A stretch of 64,000 nt of DNA from Kineococcus endophyticus (GTDB taxonomy: Bacteria > Actinomycetota > Actinomycetes > Actinomycetales > Kineococcaceae): contig NZ_JBFNQN010000004.1 in NCBI RefSeq assembly GCF_040796495.1, positions 1 through 64,000 of the forward strand. Reading direction: 5' to 3'. Below, piece after piece: positions 6,989 through 41,500 of the stretch. The notes under the pieces were generated by a model. The model saw nothing but the letters and a program-made list of their open reading frames with translations. It had not been told where the DNA came from and ran no database searches. Each line of letters starts with the position of its first letter. The first letter of the stretch is position 1. A program made the position numbers and the translations under genes.

Positions 6989-7969
6989 GTGCAGACGAGG
7001 ACACTGGGCAGGACGGGCCGCGACGTCGGCGTCGTCGGGATGGGTTGCTGGCAGATCGGCGGCAGCTGGGGGACGGTCGACGAGGACGCCGCGCTCGGGA
7101 CGTTGCAGGCCGCGGCCGACGCGGGCGTCACGTTCTTCGACACCGCGGACGTCTACGGCGACGGCCGCAGCGAGCAGCTGCTCGGGCGCTTCCTGCCGAC
7201 CGCACCGGAGGGCGTCGTCGTCGCGACGAAGATGGGCCGGCGCGCCGACCCGCACGTCGCCGAGGCCTACACGCTCGACGCGTTCCGCGCCTGGAACGAC
7301 CGCAGCCGCGAGAACCTGGGCGTCGACACGCTCGACCTCGTCCAGCTGCACTGCCCGCCGAGCGACGTCCTCCACACCGACGCCGTGTTCGACGCGCTCG
7401 ACACCCTGGTGCAGGAGGGCCGCACCCGCGCCTACGGGGTGTCGGTGGAGACGGTCGCCGAGGGCCTGGCCGCGGTCGCCCGCCCGCACGTCGCGAGCGT
7501 CCAGATCATCCTCAACCCCCTGCGCCTGAAGCCGGTGACGGAGTTCCTGCCGGCCGCCGCCGAAGCCGGGGTCGGTGTCGTCGTCCGCGTCCCGCTCGCC
7601 TCCGGGCTGCTGACCGGGCGCATCGACGAGTCGACGACGTTCCCCGCCGACGACCACCGCAACTTCAACCGCAACGGTGAGAGCTTCGACGTGGGGGAGA
7701 CCTTCGCGGGCGTCCCGCTGCACGCCGGGGTCGCCGCGGCGAAGCGCCTCGCGCAGGTCGCCGGGGACACGCCGCTCGCGGCCTTCACGCTGCGGTGGAT
7801 CGTCGAGCAGCCCGGCGTCAGCGTCGTCATCCCCGGCGCCCGCTCGCCCGAGCAGGCGCGCGGCAACGCCGCGGCGGCGGACCTCCCCGCGCCCACCGCG
7901 GCGCAGCTCGACGCCGTCGAGGAGGTCTACCGCGACCTCGTCGCGGAGCACGTGCACCACCGCTGGTGA
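6989..7969 (+). CDS. Aldo/keto reductase
   Basis: 326 residues from GTG 6989, 19 bp after the PLP enzyme. It is an NADPH-dependent (alpha/beta)8 barrel with the catalytic tetrad visible: Asp and Tyr in FFDTADVYGDG, Lys in VVATKMG and His in LVQLHCPP. IPGARSPEQARGNAAAADL near the C terminus is the cofactor-binding signature. It resembles the YdjG/Tas-like general-stress branch. Probably co-transcribed with the PLP gene; substrate unknown. A GC-rich hairpin follows the stop. Confidence 0.85.
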   Translation: MQTRTLGRTGRDVGVVGMGCWQIGGSWGTVDEDAALGTLQAAADAGVTFFDTADVYGDGRSEQLLGRFLPTAPEGVVVATKMGRRADPHVAEAYTLDAFRAWNDRSRENLGVDTLDLVQLHCPPSDVLHTDAVFDALDTLVQEGRTRAYGVSVETVAEGLAAVARPHVASVQIILNPLRLKPVTEFLPAAAEAGVGVVVRVPLASGLLTGRIDESTTFPADDHRNFNRNGESFDVGETFAGVPLHAGVAAAKRLAQVAGDTPLAAFTLRWIVEQPGVSVVIPGARSPEQARGNAAAADLPAPTAAQLDAVEEVYRDLVAEHVHHRW

Positions 7970-7977
7970 GGCACGAC

Positions 7978-8017
7978 GCGGCGGGCGGGTGATCTTCCTC
8001 AAGGGTCCGCCCGCCGC
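7978..8017 (+). terminator. GC-rich hairpin after the aldo/keto reductase
   Basis: Arms GCGGCGGGCGG (7978-7988) and CCGCCCGCCGC (8007-8017) pair perfectly over 11 bp with an 18-base loop. There is no U-tract, as is common for actinobacterial terminators. It lies between the reductase stop and the GGDEF gene. Confidence 0.45.
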
Positions 8018-8027
8018 CGCCGATGTG

Positions 8028-8034
8028 TTCTAGA
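8028..8034. promoter_or_regulatory. TTCTAGA site at the start of the GGDEF gene
   Basis: TTCTAGA runs into the ATG of the TPR-GGDEF gene (context CGATGTGTTCTAGATGACG). It has the same core as the palindromes before sipW (3093) and before the PAS-GGDEF-EAL gene (21901). A protein bound here could block initiation. Confidence 0.35.
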
Positions 8035-9593
8035 TGACGCGTCCGCCGGTGGGGAGCGCGCTCCTGGACCAGGTGCGCGCTCTCGAGCGATCCCGCGGGT
8101 ACGACCTGCTGGAGCAGGTGCCCCACGCCACCGACCTCGAGGAGCAGGCCCTCGCGGTCGGGGACCTGGTGACGGCCGCCCGCGCGACCCTCGTCCGCGC
8201 CGACGTCGCGTGCTCGGCGGGGGCGCTGGACCAGGCGAGCACGATCGTGACCGCGGCGCTGCGCGTCGCCGAGGAGTCCGGCGACGGTGAGCTCCTCGCG
8301 CGCACCCACTACATCCGCTCCCTCATGCACCTGCAGGCCGGTGACCTCGCCGAGGCGCGCTGGCACGGTGTGCGGTCCCTGGAGGAGCTGCCTCCGGACG
8401 CCCCCGCCTGGCTGCGGGCCGAGCACCTGCTGGGCCTGAGCGTCGTCCTGGACCGCTCCACCGACTCCTACGAGAACGTCATCGCCGAGGTCCTGGCCAT
8501 CGCGGCGACCGAGGACGACCACTGGCTCGAGCTCTTCGCCCTCAACAACGCCGCGTGGGACCACGTGGACCGCGGGTTCGTCGACGAGGCCGTGCGGCTG
8601 GCCGGCCGGATGCGGCGGGTGTCCCTCCAGAACGGCCTGCGGTTGCGCAGCGCCGACCTGGACACGATCGCCACGATCGAGATGCGCGCCGGGCGGCTCG
8701 AGGACGCCTGGGACACCATCAGCCACGCGTTCCTGCCGGGAACCCCCGACGTCGGCGCCGACCACGAGCCCATCGTCCGGCTCACGGCGTTCCGCATCCT
8801 CATCGGCCTCGGCCGCCCCCAGGAGGCGCTCGAACAGCTCCACCTCGCCCGCACCGTCGGGACCGAGCGGCACCTGCCGGGCGTCCTCGCCGACGTGGAG
8901 GAGGCGGACGCGACCTACCGTGCGGCGCAGGGGGACTGGGAGGGGGCCTACCGCGCCCACGTGCGCTTCCACGACGAGCACGTGCGGTTGCAGGGTCGGC
9001 AGGACGCGGCCCGTGCGATGCTCGCGCAGGCCCAGTTCGACGCCGTCACGGCCCGCCGCGACCGCGACCGGTTCCGGACGCTCGCGTTCACCGACTCCCT
9101 CACCGGCCTGCCCAACCGCCGCGCCGTGGAGGACCACGTCCGCGAGGTGCTGGAGGGTCCCGGGCCGGTGGCGGTCGCCATCGTCGACCTCGACCACTTC
9201 AAGCGCATCAACGACGAACGTTCCCACGACGCCGGCGACGCCGTCCTGCGCGACCTGGGCCACCTGCTCACCGAGTACGTCGTCGGTTCCCCCGGGAAGT
9301 TCGTCGCGCGCCTGGGCGGGGAGGAGTTCGTCGTCGTCTGGGACGGCTGGGCCGCCGGATCCGTCGTGGCGTCGGCCGAGACGTTGCGCGGTCTCGTCGC
9401 CGCGCACGACTGGTACGGCTGCACCACGGGTCTGCCCGTGACCGTCAGCATCGGTTTCGCGAGCACCGAGGAGTCGTGCTCGACCTGGTCGGACCTCATG
9501 GCGCGCGCCGACGAGCGGCTCTACGACGCCAAGCGCGGCGGCCGCAACCGCGTCGTGGGGCCGGCGGGCCTGCTGCAGGGCCAGGGCGCCTGA
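8034..9593 (+). CDS. TPR-like sensor with C-terminal GGDEF diguanylate cyclase
   Basis: 519 residues. The first 340 or so are antiparallel helix pairs with the spacing of TPR repeats (for example ARATLVRADVACSAGALDQA and LARTHYIRSLMHLQAGDLAEA). The C-terminal 170 are a GGDEF domain with DSLTGLPNRRA, VDLDHFKRIND and an intact active site GGEEF at 428-432, so c-di-GMP synthesis is expected. No RxxD inhibitory site lies five residues upstream, so product inhibition through the I-site is not predicted. There is no membrane segment, so it is cytoplasmic. No Shine-Dalgarno precedes the ATG, which overlaps the TTCTAGA site; GTG 8049 is an alternative start. Confidence 0.87.
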   Translation: MTRPPVGSALLDQVRALERSRGYDLLEQVPHATDLEEQALAVGDLVTAARATLVRADVACSAGALDQASTIVTAALRVAEESGDGELLARTHYIRSLMHLQAGDLAEARWHGVRSLEELPPDAPAWLRAEHLLGLSVVLDRSTDSYENVIAEVLAIAATEDDHWLELFALNNAAWDHVDRGFVDEAVRLAGRMRRVSLQNGLRLRSADLDTIATIEMRAGRLEDAWDTISHAFLPGTPDVGADHEPIVRLTAFRILIGLGRPQEALEQLHLARTVGTERHLPGVLADVEEADATYRAAQGDWEGAYRAHVRFHDEHVRLQGRQDAARAMLAQAQFDAVTARRDRDRFRTLAFTDSLTGLPNRRAVEDHVREVLEGPGPVAVAIVDLDHFKRINDERSHDAGDAVLRDLGHLLTEYVVGSPGKFVARLGGEEFVVVWDGWAAGSVVASAETLRGLVAAHDWYGCTTGLPVTVSIGFASTEESCSTWSDLMARADERLYDAKRGGRNRVVGPAGLLQGQGA

Positions 9594-38881: not shown

Positions 38882-39427
38882 GTGCACCGGAGAGGCAACC
38901 GGACGGCCGCCCCCGTCGTCCTCCCCGGTGTGGGGGAGGAGTTCGAGGAGTTCGTGAGCGCCGGCAGCGACCGCCTGCTGCGGCTCGCGCTGCTGCTCAC
39001 GGGCGACCGCGTGCTCGCGGAGGACCTCCTGCAGGACGTGCTGGAACGCATGTACGTCGGGTGGCGGCGCATCGAGGACCCGCACGCCTACGCGCGCACG
39101 GCCCTGGCGCGCCGCGTCACCGACCGCTGGCGGCAACGGGGCCGGCGCCCGCGCGAGGTCGAGCTCGAGGACTGGCACGGCGAGCCCGTGGCGGACGGCA
39201 CCGCCGCGCGCGCCGAACGGTCCCGGGTCGTCGAGGCGCTGCGGGCCCTGCCGCCGCGGCAGCGCGCGGTCATCGTCCTGCGCTACTTCGAGGACTGGTC
39301 CGAGGAGCAGATCGCCGACCAGCTCGACGTGTCGCGCGGGACCGTCAAGAGCCAGGCGTCCAAGGGGTTGCGGACCCTGCGGACCCTCGTCGGGGAGGAG
39401 GTGGGTGCACGGTGGACGACCAGCTGA
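38882..39427 (+). CDS. SigE-family ECF sigma factor
   Basis: 181 residues from GTG 38882. Region 2 is FEEFVSAGSDRLLRLALLLTGDRVLAEDLLQDVLERMYVGW. Region 4 is VEALRALPPRQRAVIVLRYFEDWSEEQIADQLDVSRGTVKSQASKGLRTLR. This is the SigE group typical of actinobacteria, short and without a C-terminal extension. The stop overlaps the next gene by 16 bp, so sigma and the downstream membrane protein are made together, as for a sigma/anti-sigma pair. Confidence 0.87.
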   Translation: MHRRGNRTAAPVVLPGVGEEFEEFVSAGSDRLLRLALLLTGDRVLAEDLLQDVLERMYVGWRRIEDPHAYARTALARRVTDRWRQRGRRPREVELEDWHGEPVADGTAARAERSRVVEALRALPPRQRAVIVLRYFEDWSEEQIADQLDVSRGTVKSQASKGLRTLRTLVGEEVGARWTTS

Positions 39428-39894
39428 GCGCCTGGGAGGAGCGGCTGCGGCGCGAGCTCGACCAGGCGGTGCGGGAGGTGCGGGCCCCGGACGACCTCGT
39501 CGCCTCGGCGCGTGCGGGCGGGCGGCGGCGCGTGAGTCGCCGGCGGGCCCTCGTGGCCGTCCCGGTGGTGGTCGCCGCGGGCGGGGCGGCGTGGGCCGGG
39601 TGGGCCGGCCGGACCCCGGAGCCGGTGACCCCCGCCGCCCCGTCCGCGTCCCCACCCCCGTCCCCACCCCCGTCCGAGCCGCCGGTCTCGCCCGAGGTCC
39701 CCGTCCCCACGACGCCGGACCCGCAGGCGGCCGCGGCGGCCGCCGAGATGACGGCCGTCGACCGGTTCCTGGACGAGTACCGGTACGCCGACGCGGAGCG
39801 ACTGGCGGAGCTGTGGAAGGTGGACACGTGGGAGGCCAAGGTCAAGGGCGGTCGGCTCCTGCTGTCGGGCGCCGAGATCCCGGCGACGTCGTGA
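39412..39894 (+). CDS. Membrane protein, likely partner of the ECF sigma factor, with C-terminal W-x-D-x2-EAK module
   Basis: 160 residues from GTG 39412. The cytoplasmic N terminus (LSAWEERLRRELDQAVREVRAPDDLVASARAGGRRR) has the start typical of SigE-partner proteins. It is followed by one membrane helix (LVAVPVVVAAGGAAWAGWAG), a Pro/Ser-rich spacer (about 70-108) and a terminal module of about 45 residues. The module runs RFLDEYRYADAERLAELWKVDTWEAK and ends GGRLLLSGAEIP. The same module occurs twice in the next gene's product. I infer an anti-sigma or sensor role from position and topology; no zinc anti-sigma motif is visible. Confidence 0.65.
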   Translation: MDDQLSAWEERLRRELDQAVREVRAPDDLVASARAGGRRRVSRRRALVAVPVVVAAGGAAWAGWAGRTPEPVTPAAPSASPPPSPPPSEPPVSPEVPVPTTPDPQAAAAAAEMTAVDRFLDEYRYADAERLAELWKVDTWEAKVKGGRLLLSGAEIPATS

Positions 39895-39938
39895 CGTCGG
39901 CGGGCAACCCAGGACGGCGCCCCGTCGTCTGGACGGGC

Positions 39939-40514
39939 ATGAGCGAAACTCCGCACCGCACCCCCGCCCAGCGCCGCGCCGCCCGCGTCGTCACGGCCAC
40001 CGTCGTCGCGAGCGGCCTGGCCCTGGCCGGCGGCAGCGCCTACGCCCAGGCCCGCGACTCCTCGACGGACCGGCCCGTGCCGGTCGCGGCGGAACCCGTC
40101 GCAGGACCCGCCGCGGAACCCGTCGCGGAACCCGTCGCGGAACCCGTCGCCGCCCCGCTGCCGGCCGACGACGCCGCCCGGCAGACGTACTTCGCCGCGG
40201 GCTACACCTACGACGACGCCGTCGTCCTCGGCGCCCAGTGGAACCTCGACCCGTTCGAGGCCAAGGCGGAGGCCGGGCGGAAGCTGGCGGCGGGCCAGAC
40301 CCTGCCGGTCGCCCCGGGTTCGAGCCCCGTCGCGGAACCGGCCCCCGTGGAGGACGACGGGTCCGCAGCGGCGGTGGACGCGTTCTTCGCGGCGGGGCAC
40401 GACTACGACGACGCGGTCGCGCTGGCGGCGGTCTGGAACGTCGACCCCTTCGAGGCCAAGGTCACCGCGGGGCAGCGGATCCTGGCCGGGGAGACCCTGC
40501 CGGTGGCGCCCTGA
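39939..40514 (+). CDS. Exported protein with two copies of the W-x-D-x2-EAK module
   Basis: 191 residues from ATG 39939. Signal peptide RRAARVVTATVVASGLALAGGSAYAQA, an Ala/Glu/Pro/Val linker made by 12-bp repeats, then two modules. The first is YFAAGYTYDDAVVLGAQWNLDPFEAK...LPVAP and the second FFAAGHDYDDAVALAAVWNVDPFEAK...LPVAP. The shared pattern with the upstream membrane protein is Y/H-x-Y-x-DA-x2-LA-x2-W-x-x-D-x-x-EAK-x3-G. I know no named family for it. Probably secreted and interacting with, or competing with, the membrane protein's module. Confidence 0.7.
   Translation: MSETPHRTPAQRRAARVVTATVVASGLALAGGSAYAQARDSSTDRPVPVAAEPVAGPAAEPVAEPVAEPVAAPLPADDAARQTYFAAGYTYDDAVVLGAQWNLDPFEAKAEAGRKLAAGQTLPVAPGSSPVAEPAPVEDDGSAAAVDAFFAAGHDYDDAVALAAVWNVDPFEAKVTAGQRILAGETLPVAP
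40089..40148. repeat. Five 12-bp tandem units encoding an EPVA linker
   Basis: GCGGAACCCGTC repeated five times (the second copy diverged), giving repeated Ala-Glu-Pro-Val in the spacer between signal peptide and first module. Copy number is likely to vary between strains. Confidence 0.8.
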
Positions 40515-41500
40515 ACGAGCTGCCCCGCACCGGGTTCGAGGTCGAGCTGCTCGCCCCTCGGGGGGCGAGCAGGCTCGACCTCGCCGTCGACCTGGCCCGG
40601 CGCTGCGGCGGACGGGTCGTCCGGCGGTTCCACGTGGACACCGAGTCCTCCGCGACCCCGGGCGTCCGTGCGTTCTGGCACCTGACACCCGCGTTCGACG
40701 TCGTCGACGACGCCGGGAACCTGCGCTGCTCCCTCGTGGACGACACCACGATCGTCGCCGACCTCGACGCGAGCGCACCGGCGCGGCCGGGGTGGTTCCG
40801 CGTGCTCAGCGACGACCCGCGGCTGCTGCGCCTCGTCCTGCGGTACGCCGACCCGGCGGAGGGGATCGGGTCGGTGCTCACCCCGGTCGCGGCGGTGTTC
40901 GGCTCGCAGGTGGTCGAGGTCGCCGGCGTGCACCGGCTCGACGACTCCGCCGGGGCCACGATCGCCCTCGCCGCACCCCTGCCGGGGGAACGTGAACGTC
41001 CGTGCGAACTCGTGACGCCGCCGTTCACCGACCGCCACGACGAACGCCTCGAGGAACTGCTGGCAGCGGCTCGCGACCTGGGTTTCTCGGTGCCGCGGGA
41101 GGCGGCCGTCCACGTGAACCTCGACGCCGCGGGTTTCCGTGACGTCGCGCGGTTCCGTCAGGTCGTGGAGTTCTTCGCGGCGCGGGAGGACCTGCACCGG
41201 CGGTTCGCGACGAACCCGCACTGCCGCCGGCTGGGACCGCTGCCCGCCGACCTCGTCGACCTCGTGGGGCGAGACTGGCCGGACTGGGAGTCCCTGCGCG
41301 CCGCGGCGGCACGGACTGCGGTGACGAAGTACGCCGACGTCGACGTGACGCGGGTGCTGCGAGTGCGGCCGGGGCCGGACGTGCTGGAGGTGCGTTTGCT
41401 GCCGGGGTCGGTCGACGGGGTGGCGATCGCCCGGCAGGCGGCTCAGCTCTGGGGGTCCTTGCGCTCGGCCGGGCGGTCGGCCGGTCGTTCCACCAGGTAG
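40511..41500 (+). CDS. Putative amidoligase-family enzyme (start codon uncertain)
   Basis: About 329 residues. TGFEVELLAPRGASRLDLAVDLARR is the opening of the amidoligase (glutamine-synthetase-like/COOH-NH2 ligase) fold, and ELVTPPF plus AAVHVNLDAAGF and NPHCRRL contain the expected acidic, His and Asn positions. No ATG or GTG lies near the domain start. CTG 40511 overlaps the previous stop as CTGA, mimicking the GTGA couplings elsewhere. It would join an amine to a carboxylate. The 3' end overlaps a convergent small gene by 58 bp. Confidence 0.65.
   Translation: MNELPRTGFEVELLAPRGASRLDLAVDLARRCGGRVVRRFHVDTESSATPGVRAFWHLTPAFDVVDDAGNLRCSLVDDTTIVADLDASAPARPGWFRVLSDDPRLLRLVLRYADPAEGIGSVLTPVAAVFGSQVVEVAGVHRLDDSAGATIALAAPLPGERERPCELVTPPFTDRHDERLEELLAAARDLGFSVPREAAVHVNLDAAGFRDVARFRQVVEFFAAREDLHRRFATNPHCRRLGPLPADLVDLVGRDWPDWESLRAAAARTAVTKYADVDVTRVLRVRPGPDVLEVRLLPGSVDGVAIARQAAQLWGSLRSAGRSAGRSTR

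Follow-up and report, generated by a model that had tools for sequence, protein, structure and literature searches.

We analysed a 64,000-nucleotide stretch of the Kineococcus endophyticus genome (contig NZ_JBFNQN010000004.1, positions 1 to 64,000; hereafter the window), which sits in a genome of 5.04 Mb, and concentrated on a cluster of four genes at positions 38882-41500. These genes encode, in order, an extracytoplasmic function (ECF) sigma factor, a single-pass membrane protein, a secreted protein and an amidoligase (Table 1). The membrane and secreted proteins share a module of about 45 residues, present once in the former and twice in the latter. A first-pass annotation of the window had described the four genes and their order, the overlap of the sigma and membrane genes, the single-pass topology of the membrane protein, three copies of the module and the adjacent amidoligase, and we confirmed all of these. 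Our results suggest that, in many soil actinomycetes, this enzyme chemically marks or cross-links exported repeats before they leave the cell.

Table 1. Features of the cluster, in window coordinates
Feature	Position	Strand	Basis or remark
Predicted ECF-type promoter P1, GGCAACC-N16-CGTC-N9-GTG	38894..38932	+	Own-genome pattern match; possible leaderless start of the sigma gene
SigE-family ECF sigma factor	38930..39427	+	TIGR02983, PF08281/PF04542; open reading frame open from 38882
Single-pass membrane module protein, putative anti-sigma	39412..39894	+	Relatives share the layout; topology judged by eye, anti-sigma role presumed
Module 1, in membrane protein	39754..39888	+	Profile E 4.3e-18 (whole-genome search)
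Predicted ECF-type promoter P2, GGCAACC-N16-CGTC-N9-ATG	39903..39941	+	6/6 Kineococcus loci of the same layout; possible leaderless start of the secreted gene
Secreted module protein	39939..40514	+	Signal peptide ~39939-40046 (AYA|QA, by eye); orthologues found
Module 2, in secreted protein	40176..40316	+	Profile E 2.7e-22 (whole-genome search)
Module 3, in secreted protein	40371..40511	+	Profile E 3.3e-23 (whole-genome search)
Amidoligase (PF12224, glutamine-synthetase-like carboxylate-amine ligase)	40511..41500	+	PF12224 E 6.4e-12; probable CTG start overlaps the module-gene stop

The window sigma factor scored 165.9 bits against TIGR02983 (cut-off 141.55), and its gene overlaps the membrane gene by 16 bases (39412-39427). 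Its start is probably the GTG at 38930, not 38882 where the open reading frame (ORF) opens, because a promoter-like element falls within the first 16 codons of the ORF. The membrane protein has one hydrophobic segment (transmembrane part at about 39547-39609) and a cytoplasmic part of about 45 amino acids, and is predicted to lie with its N terminus inside and its C terminus outside. It matched no anti-sigma domain in Pfam or NCBIfam; its position and topology fit an anti-sigma factor. The secreted gene starts at ATG 39939. For the amidoligase, the first-pass annotation had proposed a CTG start, and CTG 40511 is plausible, although not proven: no ATG, GTG or TTG lies in frame between the module-gene stop and the conserved RTGFE core of the window enzyme, and in a close relative (L028) a CTG is the only start available close by. 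Among 78 other loci, a GTG, ATG or TTG was found near the module stop at 59 and none at 19.

To collect relatives of the module, we ran an iterated profile search on the window and 14 related loci, which gave 48 domain matches; adding further loci brought the alignment to 324 modules, 286 of them distinct. The three copies in the window matched the profile far beyond chance (E-values of 1.1e-16, 1.6e-23 and 3.6e-24), and identity to module 3 over 46-47 columns is 64% for module 2 and 43% for module 1. The consensus reads [DE]AF[FW]xAGYxx[DE]DAxxLAxLWxxxDxxEAKxxAGxKLLAGxxLPVxP, with an invariant tryptophan (285/285) and an invariant proline at column 57 (283/283). When the organism's own genome was searched with the secreted protein, the module was present at this cluster only; a third match (contig C12, E 0.004) spans residues 15-77 of the secreted protein, N-terminal of the modules.

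The module, left unnamed in the first-pass annotation, belongs to no described Pfam or NCBIfam family. Comparison with Pfam gave nothing beyond chance (three families, each matched by 1 of 29 members, best E 0.028), as did comparison with NCBIfam (best E 0.0029, 1 of 81 members), and no match was found among PDB sequences. The structure prediction that had been suggested for the module, carried out with AlphaFold2 on two consecutive modules (81 alignment rows), returned two three-helix bundles, with helices at residues 2-11, 16-26 and 30-42 and then 67-76, 81-91 and 95-107. The mean predicted local distance difference test (pLDDT) score was 83, at about 80-90 within modules, with a low-confidence linker and a predicted template modelling (pTM) score of 0.48. 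Fold comparison gave no significant match (best Foldseek E of 0.7; VIA-align Z-scores of at most 3.3 across 55 chains) and speaks neither for nor against a UBA-like arrangement of the three helices. A LysM-like module is unlikely, because the predicted module is all-helical and the LysM fold is beta-alpha-alpha-beta.

The window amidoligase scored 46.3 bits against PF12224, where the curated cut-off is 22, and all 18 members of our sequence set A3 matched this family at E 0.1 or better. Its AlphaFold2 model (60 rows) reached a pLDDT of 94.8 and a pTM of 0.91. Foldseek alone gave no match below E 0.001, and we realigned its top 1000 chains structurally with VIA-align. The list was headed by S. 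coelicolor glutamine synthetase (GS; 4bax, Z 11.1, root-mean-square deviation 3.6, 181 of 329 residues aligned), with YbdK (Z 9.5) and Dop (Z 8.9) lower down, and the best 50 entries were all GS, YbdK-type or Dop. By this comparison the model has a GS fold; ligases of this class form amide bonds at the expense of adenosine triphosphate (ATP), and the window enzyme may do so too. Across the 60 rows, an ExE, an H and an ExR are invariant (E10, E12, H201, E293 and R295), which we take to resemble the metal and nucleotide residues of GS. No signal peptide was visible in the amidoligase by eye, so the enzyme should be cytoplasmic. We also considered a mobile element or defence system; there was no amidoligase match in phages or plasmids and no PADLOC match, and the single PHROG match to the amidoligase was weak (E 0.00061). 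In one genome (G776, C3:163001-163989) the amidoligase occurs as two adjacent pieces in different frames, still beside modules, and may be broken or mis-sequenced.

An initial scan of genomes with the secreted protein found no relatives, and we therefore used an amidoligase alignment as the query, which gave 232 relatives. The locus counts below refer to the best-scoring 80 of these 232, from the Actinoplanes group, Cellulomonas, Promicromonospora, Kineosporia, Kineococcus and others. Modules were encoded on the amidoligase strand in 80 out of 80 loci and directly upstream of the amidoligase in 78 out of 80; at the other two (L085 and L125, the latter cut by a contig end) they lay downstream only. 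A sigma gene was present in 69 of the 80 loci, or in 69 of the 77 with enough sequence, since three loci without one (L074, L075 and L109) end 88-211 bases past the amidoligase match. Clustering of ORFs of 80 amino acids or more from 21 loci, with clusters common to at least four loci, left only three that we read as real shared genes: the module protein (21/21), the amidoligase (21/21) and the sigma factor (15/21). The remaining shared clusters were antisense ORFs or, in one case, a second frame over the sigma gene. The neighbourhood, whose conservation in relatives the first-pass annotation had left to be checked, thus recurs widely, usually with sigma factor, modules and amidoligase as one unit with shared promoter elements.

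These 80 loci are biased in that the amidoligase was the query, and the unbiased comparison is a survey of 297 genomes of the order. The amidoligase profile matched 19 of these genomes and the module profile 20, with all 19 shared; at E 1e-5, neither was found in the other 277. The sole genome with modules only (G812) comprises about 610 contigs at 76% completeness. Thirteen of the 19 amidoligase genomes had supplied sequences to the profiles; in the six that had not (G717, G733, G776, G793, G889 and G918), modules also adjoin the amidoligase. A sample of 296 genomes of the class contained five genomes with PF12224, the same five that had strong module matches, four of which were absent from the module profile; we attributed three weak module matches in this sample (E 0.001-0.008) to chance and left them out. 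The co-occurrence that the first-pass annotation had put up for testing was near-complete for the amidoligase (modules in 19/19 amidoligase genomes of the order, one further genome with modules only) and looser for the sigma factor (69/77 loci).

In a sample of 396 genomes of the phylum, PF12224 matched at E 1e-5 in four: the window's own genome, G595, G580 and G498. Four modules accompany the amidoligase in G595, whereas no modules were found in the 2-3 kb around the match in G580 or G498. The pairing therefore seems to be a property of this amidoligase subfamily, not of PF12224 at large. By eye, the amidoligase of G580 (L065) lies near a gamma-glutamylcyclotransferase-like ORF, and the match in G498 (L067) is part of a long ORF that has repeats rich in lysine and arginine, in surroundings that resemble viral sequence.

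Further inspection of the loci revealed several layouts, with membrane and secreted types told apart by eye from the length of the N terminus before the hydrophobic stretch. In 42 loci, the sigma gene is followed by a membrane-type module protein (2-5 modules, mostly 2-3) and the amidoligase. As a rule, 27 loci run from a secreted-type module protein through the amidoligase and the sigma factor to a membrane-type module protein. The remaining 11 combine a module protein, mostly of the secreted type, with the amidoligase and have no sigma gene in the stretch examined; several loci (Kineosporia, an Egibacteraceae metagenome-assembled genome) have a secreted-type module protein only and no sigma gene in that stretch. 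The window layout is sigma-first with both membrane and secreted proteins, as in the five close relatives L023, L027, L028, L030 and L031. Tat-type export of the module protein was considered and set aside, as the RR motif was by eye not constant among the secreted versions. Cellulomonas chitinilytica (L076) has a third module protein, with two modules, after the membrane one (7718-8038), so the family can expand in tandem. Another genome of the same genus as the window (G006; L029:5698-7283) has a paralogous sigma factor and a two-module membrane-type protein with no amidoligase within 14 kb, and in its second module glutamine replaces a lysine that is nearly invariant elsewhere. Two adjacent CrcB-like genes (PF02537, 38108-38868) immediately precede the window sigma gene. 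L028 shows the same arrangement; the CrcB match of L023 and of L031 is some 5-6 kb distant from the sigma gene.

In three lineages the unit is headed by ECF-type promoter elements, a pattern consistent with autoactivation by the sigma factor encoded there. In Kineococcus, GGCAACS-N16-CGTC-N9-ATG precedes the secreted gene in 6 out of 6 loci with the window layout, and the same element with GTG precedes the sigma gene in 5 out of 6 of these genomes, the window included. The two elements are the sole matches genome-wide in G007. Across 11 genomes, the strict pattern with a start codon gave 34 matches, 11 at the cluster and 23 elsewhere that look by eye like coding sequence, compared with 2 for a reversed control. 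A looser pattern in the window's own genome, GGCAACS-N16-CGTCT, gave 4 matches including P2, compared with 3 for its reversed control. The cluster of G009 (L068) carries, by eye, GGCAAC-N17-CGTC with a shorter gap, and the contig of G002 ends before the sigma gene.

Among the sigma-first loci, TGCACR-N16/17-CGTC-N8/9-RTG precedes the sigma gene in 27 out of 42, where mononucleotide shuffles gave an expectation of 0.003, and has no match elsewhere in 0.89 Mb. In Cellulomonas-type loci, the relaxed form C[TC][GC]CACA-N15-18-CGTY precedes the secreted gene in 27 out of 28, with 0.17 expected from shuffles and 24 other matches in 0.57 Mb. The Actinoplanes pattern gave 54 matches, against 23 in the control, in 16 genomes chosen for carrying it before the sigma gene; no recurrent second target was evident among these matches, which were not followed up gene by gene. 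CGTC is a common ECF -10 element, and the -35-like half differs, being GGCAAC in Kineococcus and T/S-S-CACA in the others. We infer that the resident sigma factor uses these elements, and in Kineococcus and Actinoplanes the closeness of the element to the start codon points to leaderless messages.

The module alignment indicated one candidate site for modification. Column 43 is lysine in 282 of 285 modules, the others having glutamine (two) or threonine (one), and is never arginine. Nearby basic columns carry both lysine and arginine (63/59 and 81/80, respectively), and basic residues outside column 43 total 525 lysines and 357 arginines; positive charge alone thus leaves the lysine unexplained. 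Column 14 is aspartate or glutamate in 267 of 284 modules. Helix spacing would place the lysine (residue 34 in the two-module model) on the same helix face as an invariant glycine (residue 38), and this glycine level with the acid at residue 18 on the neighbouring helix.

Taking these results together, we see about an even chance that the cluster is a self-contained envelope system, in which a sigma factor switches on its own sensor together with an exported repeat protein, the latter being modified by a cytoplasmic ligase. The ECF sigma factor would transcribe its own gene and, through a second promoter or the same operon, those for the exported modules and the cytoplasmic amidoligase. The membrane protein would hold the sigma factor by its cytoplasmic N terminus, as its position suggests, and display the same modules outside. 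The amidoligase would be a dedicated writer of the modules, activating a carboxylate with ATP and joining it to an amine before export. The chemistry is what we infer; if the ligase acts on the module, the amine would most likely be the near-invariant lysine, joined either to the acidic residue of the module (D/E about 16 residues earlier) or to a small acid. Modified modules might then act at the cell surface or outside it, and the sigma factor might read their state through the membrane copies. A narrower version is offered tentatively, as less likely than not: in a lysine-specific modification system, the GS-fold ligase would use ATP to form an isopeptide bond at each module of the exported protein, either inside the module or attaching something to it, and the ECF sigma factor with its module-bearing membrane partner would monitor the product.

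Several points weigh against this interpretation. It is drawn from sequence and predicted structure. The amidoligase has no visible signal peptide and the modules are exported, so the enzyme must either reach the modules before export or have another target. The lysine is absent from 3 of 285 modules, two of them in one Frigoribacterium protein that adjoins an amidoligase (L138); the acid at column 14 is not invariant, being asparagine in 11 and another residue in 6 of 284 modules; the lysine could also be structural, in a buried salt bridge; and the 286 modules are not independent, many coming from related species. Eight of the 77 loci with enough sequence have no sigma gene nearby, which indicates that sigma control is not essential to the module-amidoligase pair. 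The promoter patterns were drawn up from the sequences in which they were then counted, and the loci are linked by common descent; at the clusters of G003, G009 and G010, whose layouts differ, the strict Kineococcus pattern is absent, and the strict form is missing from 15 of the 42 sigma-first loci.

The enzyme might instead make a small amide, for example a glutamyl amide, an amide of another amino acid or a cell-wall precursor carrying a modification, which the modules would bind outside the cell and the membrane copy would sense. We consider this rather doubtful. Glutamine synthetases, YbdK and gamma-glutamylmethylamide synthetase act on small molecules and fill most of the structure list, and the enzyme looks cytoplasmic with the modules outside. 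However, no transporter, peptidase or other metabolic gene was shared with the pair among the ORFs clustered from 21 loci, and a lysine that is never arginine, with one enzyme per module family, points to direct contact. The first-pass annotation had suggested that the amidoligase makes or tags a ligand; tagging would fit better than making one, because the constant pair is the module protein and the amidoligase.

That annotation had also supposed that the secreted repeats compete with or bind the membrane module and so inform the sigma factor about something outside. We considered this as competition for a shared partner that tunes the sigma factor, with the amidoligase as a passenger of the regulon. 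Window-type Kineococcus and Cellulomonas-type loci do have both versions, sharing a promoter element or operon, but many relatives have one version only, so competition fails as a general rule. The amidoligase is moreover the more constant partner even where there is no sigma gene, albeit in loci found with the amidoligase as query, and we regard this explanation as very unlikely. Alternatively, the modules could be structural or adhesive surface repeats, with the amidoligase acting on some other cell-wall component under the same sigma factor. Exported tandem repeats with a low-confidence linker would suit such a role, as would the frequent service of ECF sigma factors in envelope stress; the near-absolute pairing, which extends to sigma-less loci, is left unexplained, and this too seems unlikely.

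If the module is the substrate, exported proteins would here be cross-linked or tagged in a manner that is new, and if the isopeptide version is true, it would place ribosomal-peptide cross-linking chemistry in a GS-like fold. A branch of a poorly characterised amidoligase family gains a specific protein partner in which one lysine is suspect, in environmental genera that include Kineococcus, Cellulomonas and Actinoplanes, together with an ECF sigma factor predicted most clearly to target its own genes. By title or abstract opening, no description of such a system was found in the literature searched, which left out most subscription papers.

To our knowledge, the GS-like fold has so far been known mainly for small-molecule amides and pupylation. 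PafA and Dop share this fold and form or cleave isopeptide bonds to lysine; the amidoligase resembles them in its GS-like fold, and Dop is in the structural match list. Unlike in pupylation, the suspected substrate here is an exported repeat, and no Pup-like shared neighbour was found among ORFs of at least 80 amino acids, a comparison that did not cover shorter ORFs such as Pup itself. The cluster also resembles pairs of an ECF sigma factor and a membrane anti-sigma factor (SigE family, TIGR02983) in its sigma family, in the overlap with a single-pass protein and in the promoter before its own gene; by contrast, the sensor part would be an amidoligase-linked module, and no known anti-sigma domain was detected.

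The enzyme shares with Amidoligase_2 (PF12224) its sequence family, a GS-like model and the ExE...H...ExR residues; this subfamily is tied to one exported repeat domain, unlike the PF12224 matches of G580 and G498, which had no module in the 2-3 kb around them. Amidoligase_2 is reportedly among the GS-like COOH-NH2 ligases on which Iyer and colleagues published predictions in 2009. Iyer et al. 2009 is cited in PMC8939145 and PMC4431377. Graspetides (PMC8939145, PMC5934393) have a dedicated ATP-using ligase encoded beside its ribosomal substrate, sometimes with repeated cores. The cluster resembles multi-core graspetides in having a dedicated ligase, here predicted to use ATP, beside a repeat-bearing ribosomal product; it differs in that the ligase is of the PF12224, GS-like type and not ATP-grasp, and in its predicted folded modules of about 45 amino acids, their membrane-anchored copies and the ECF sigma factor.

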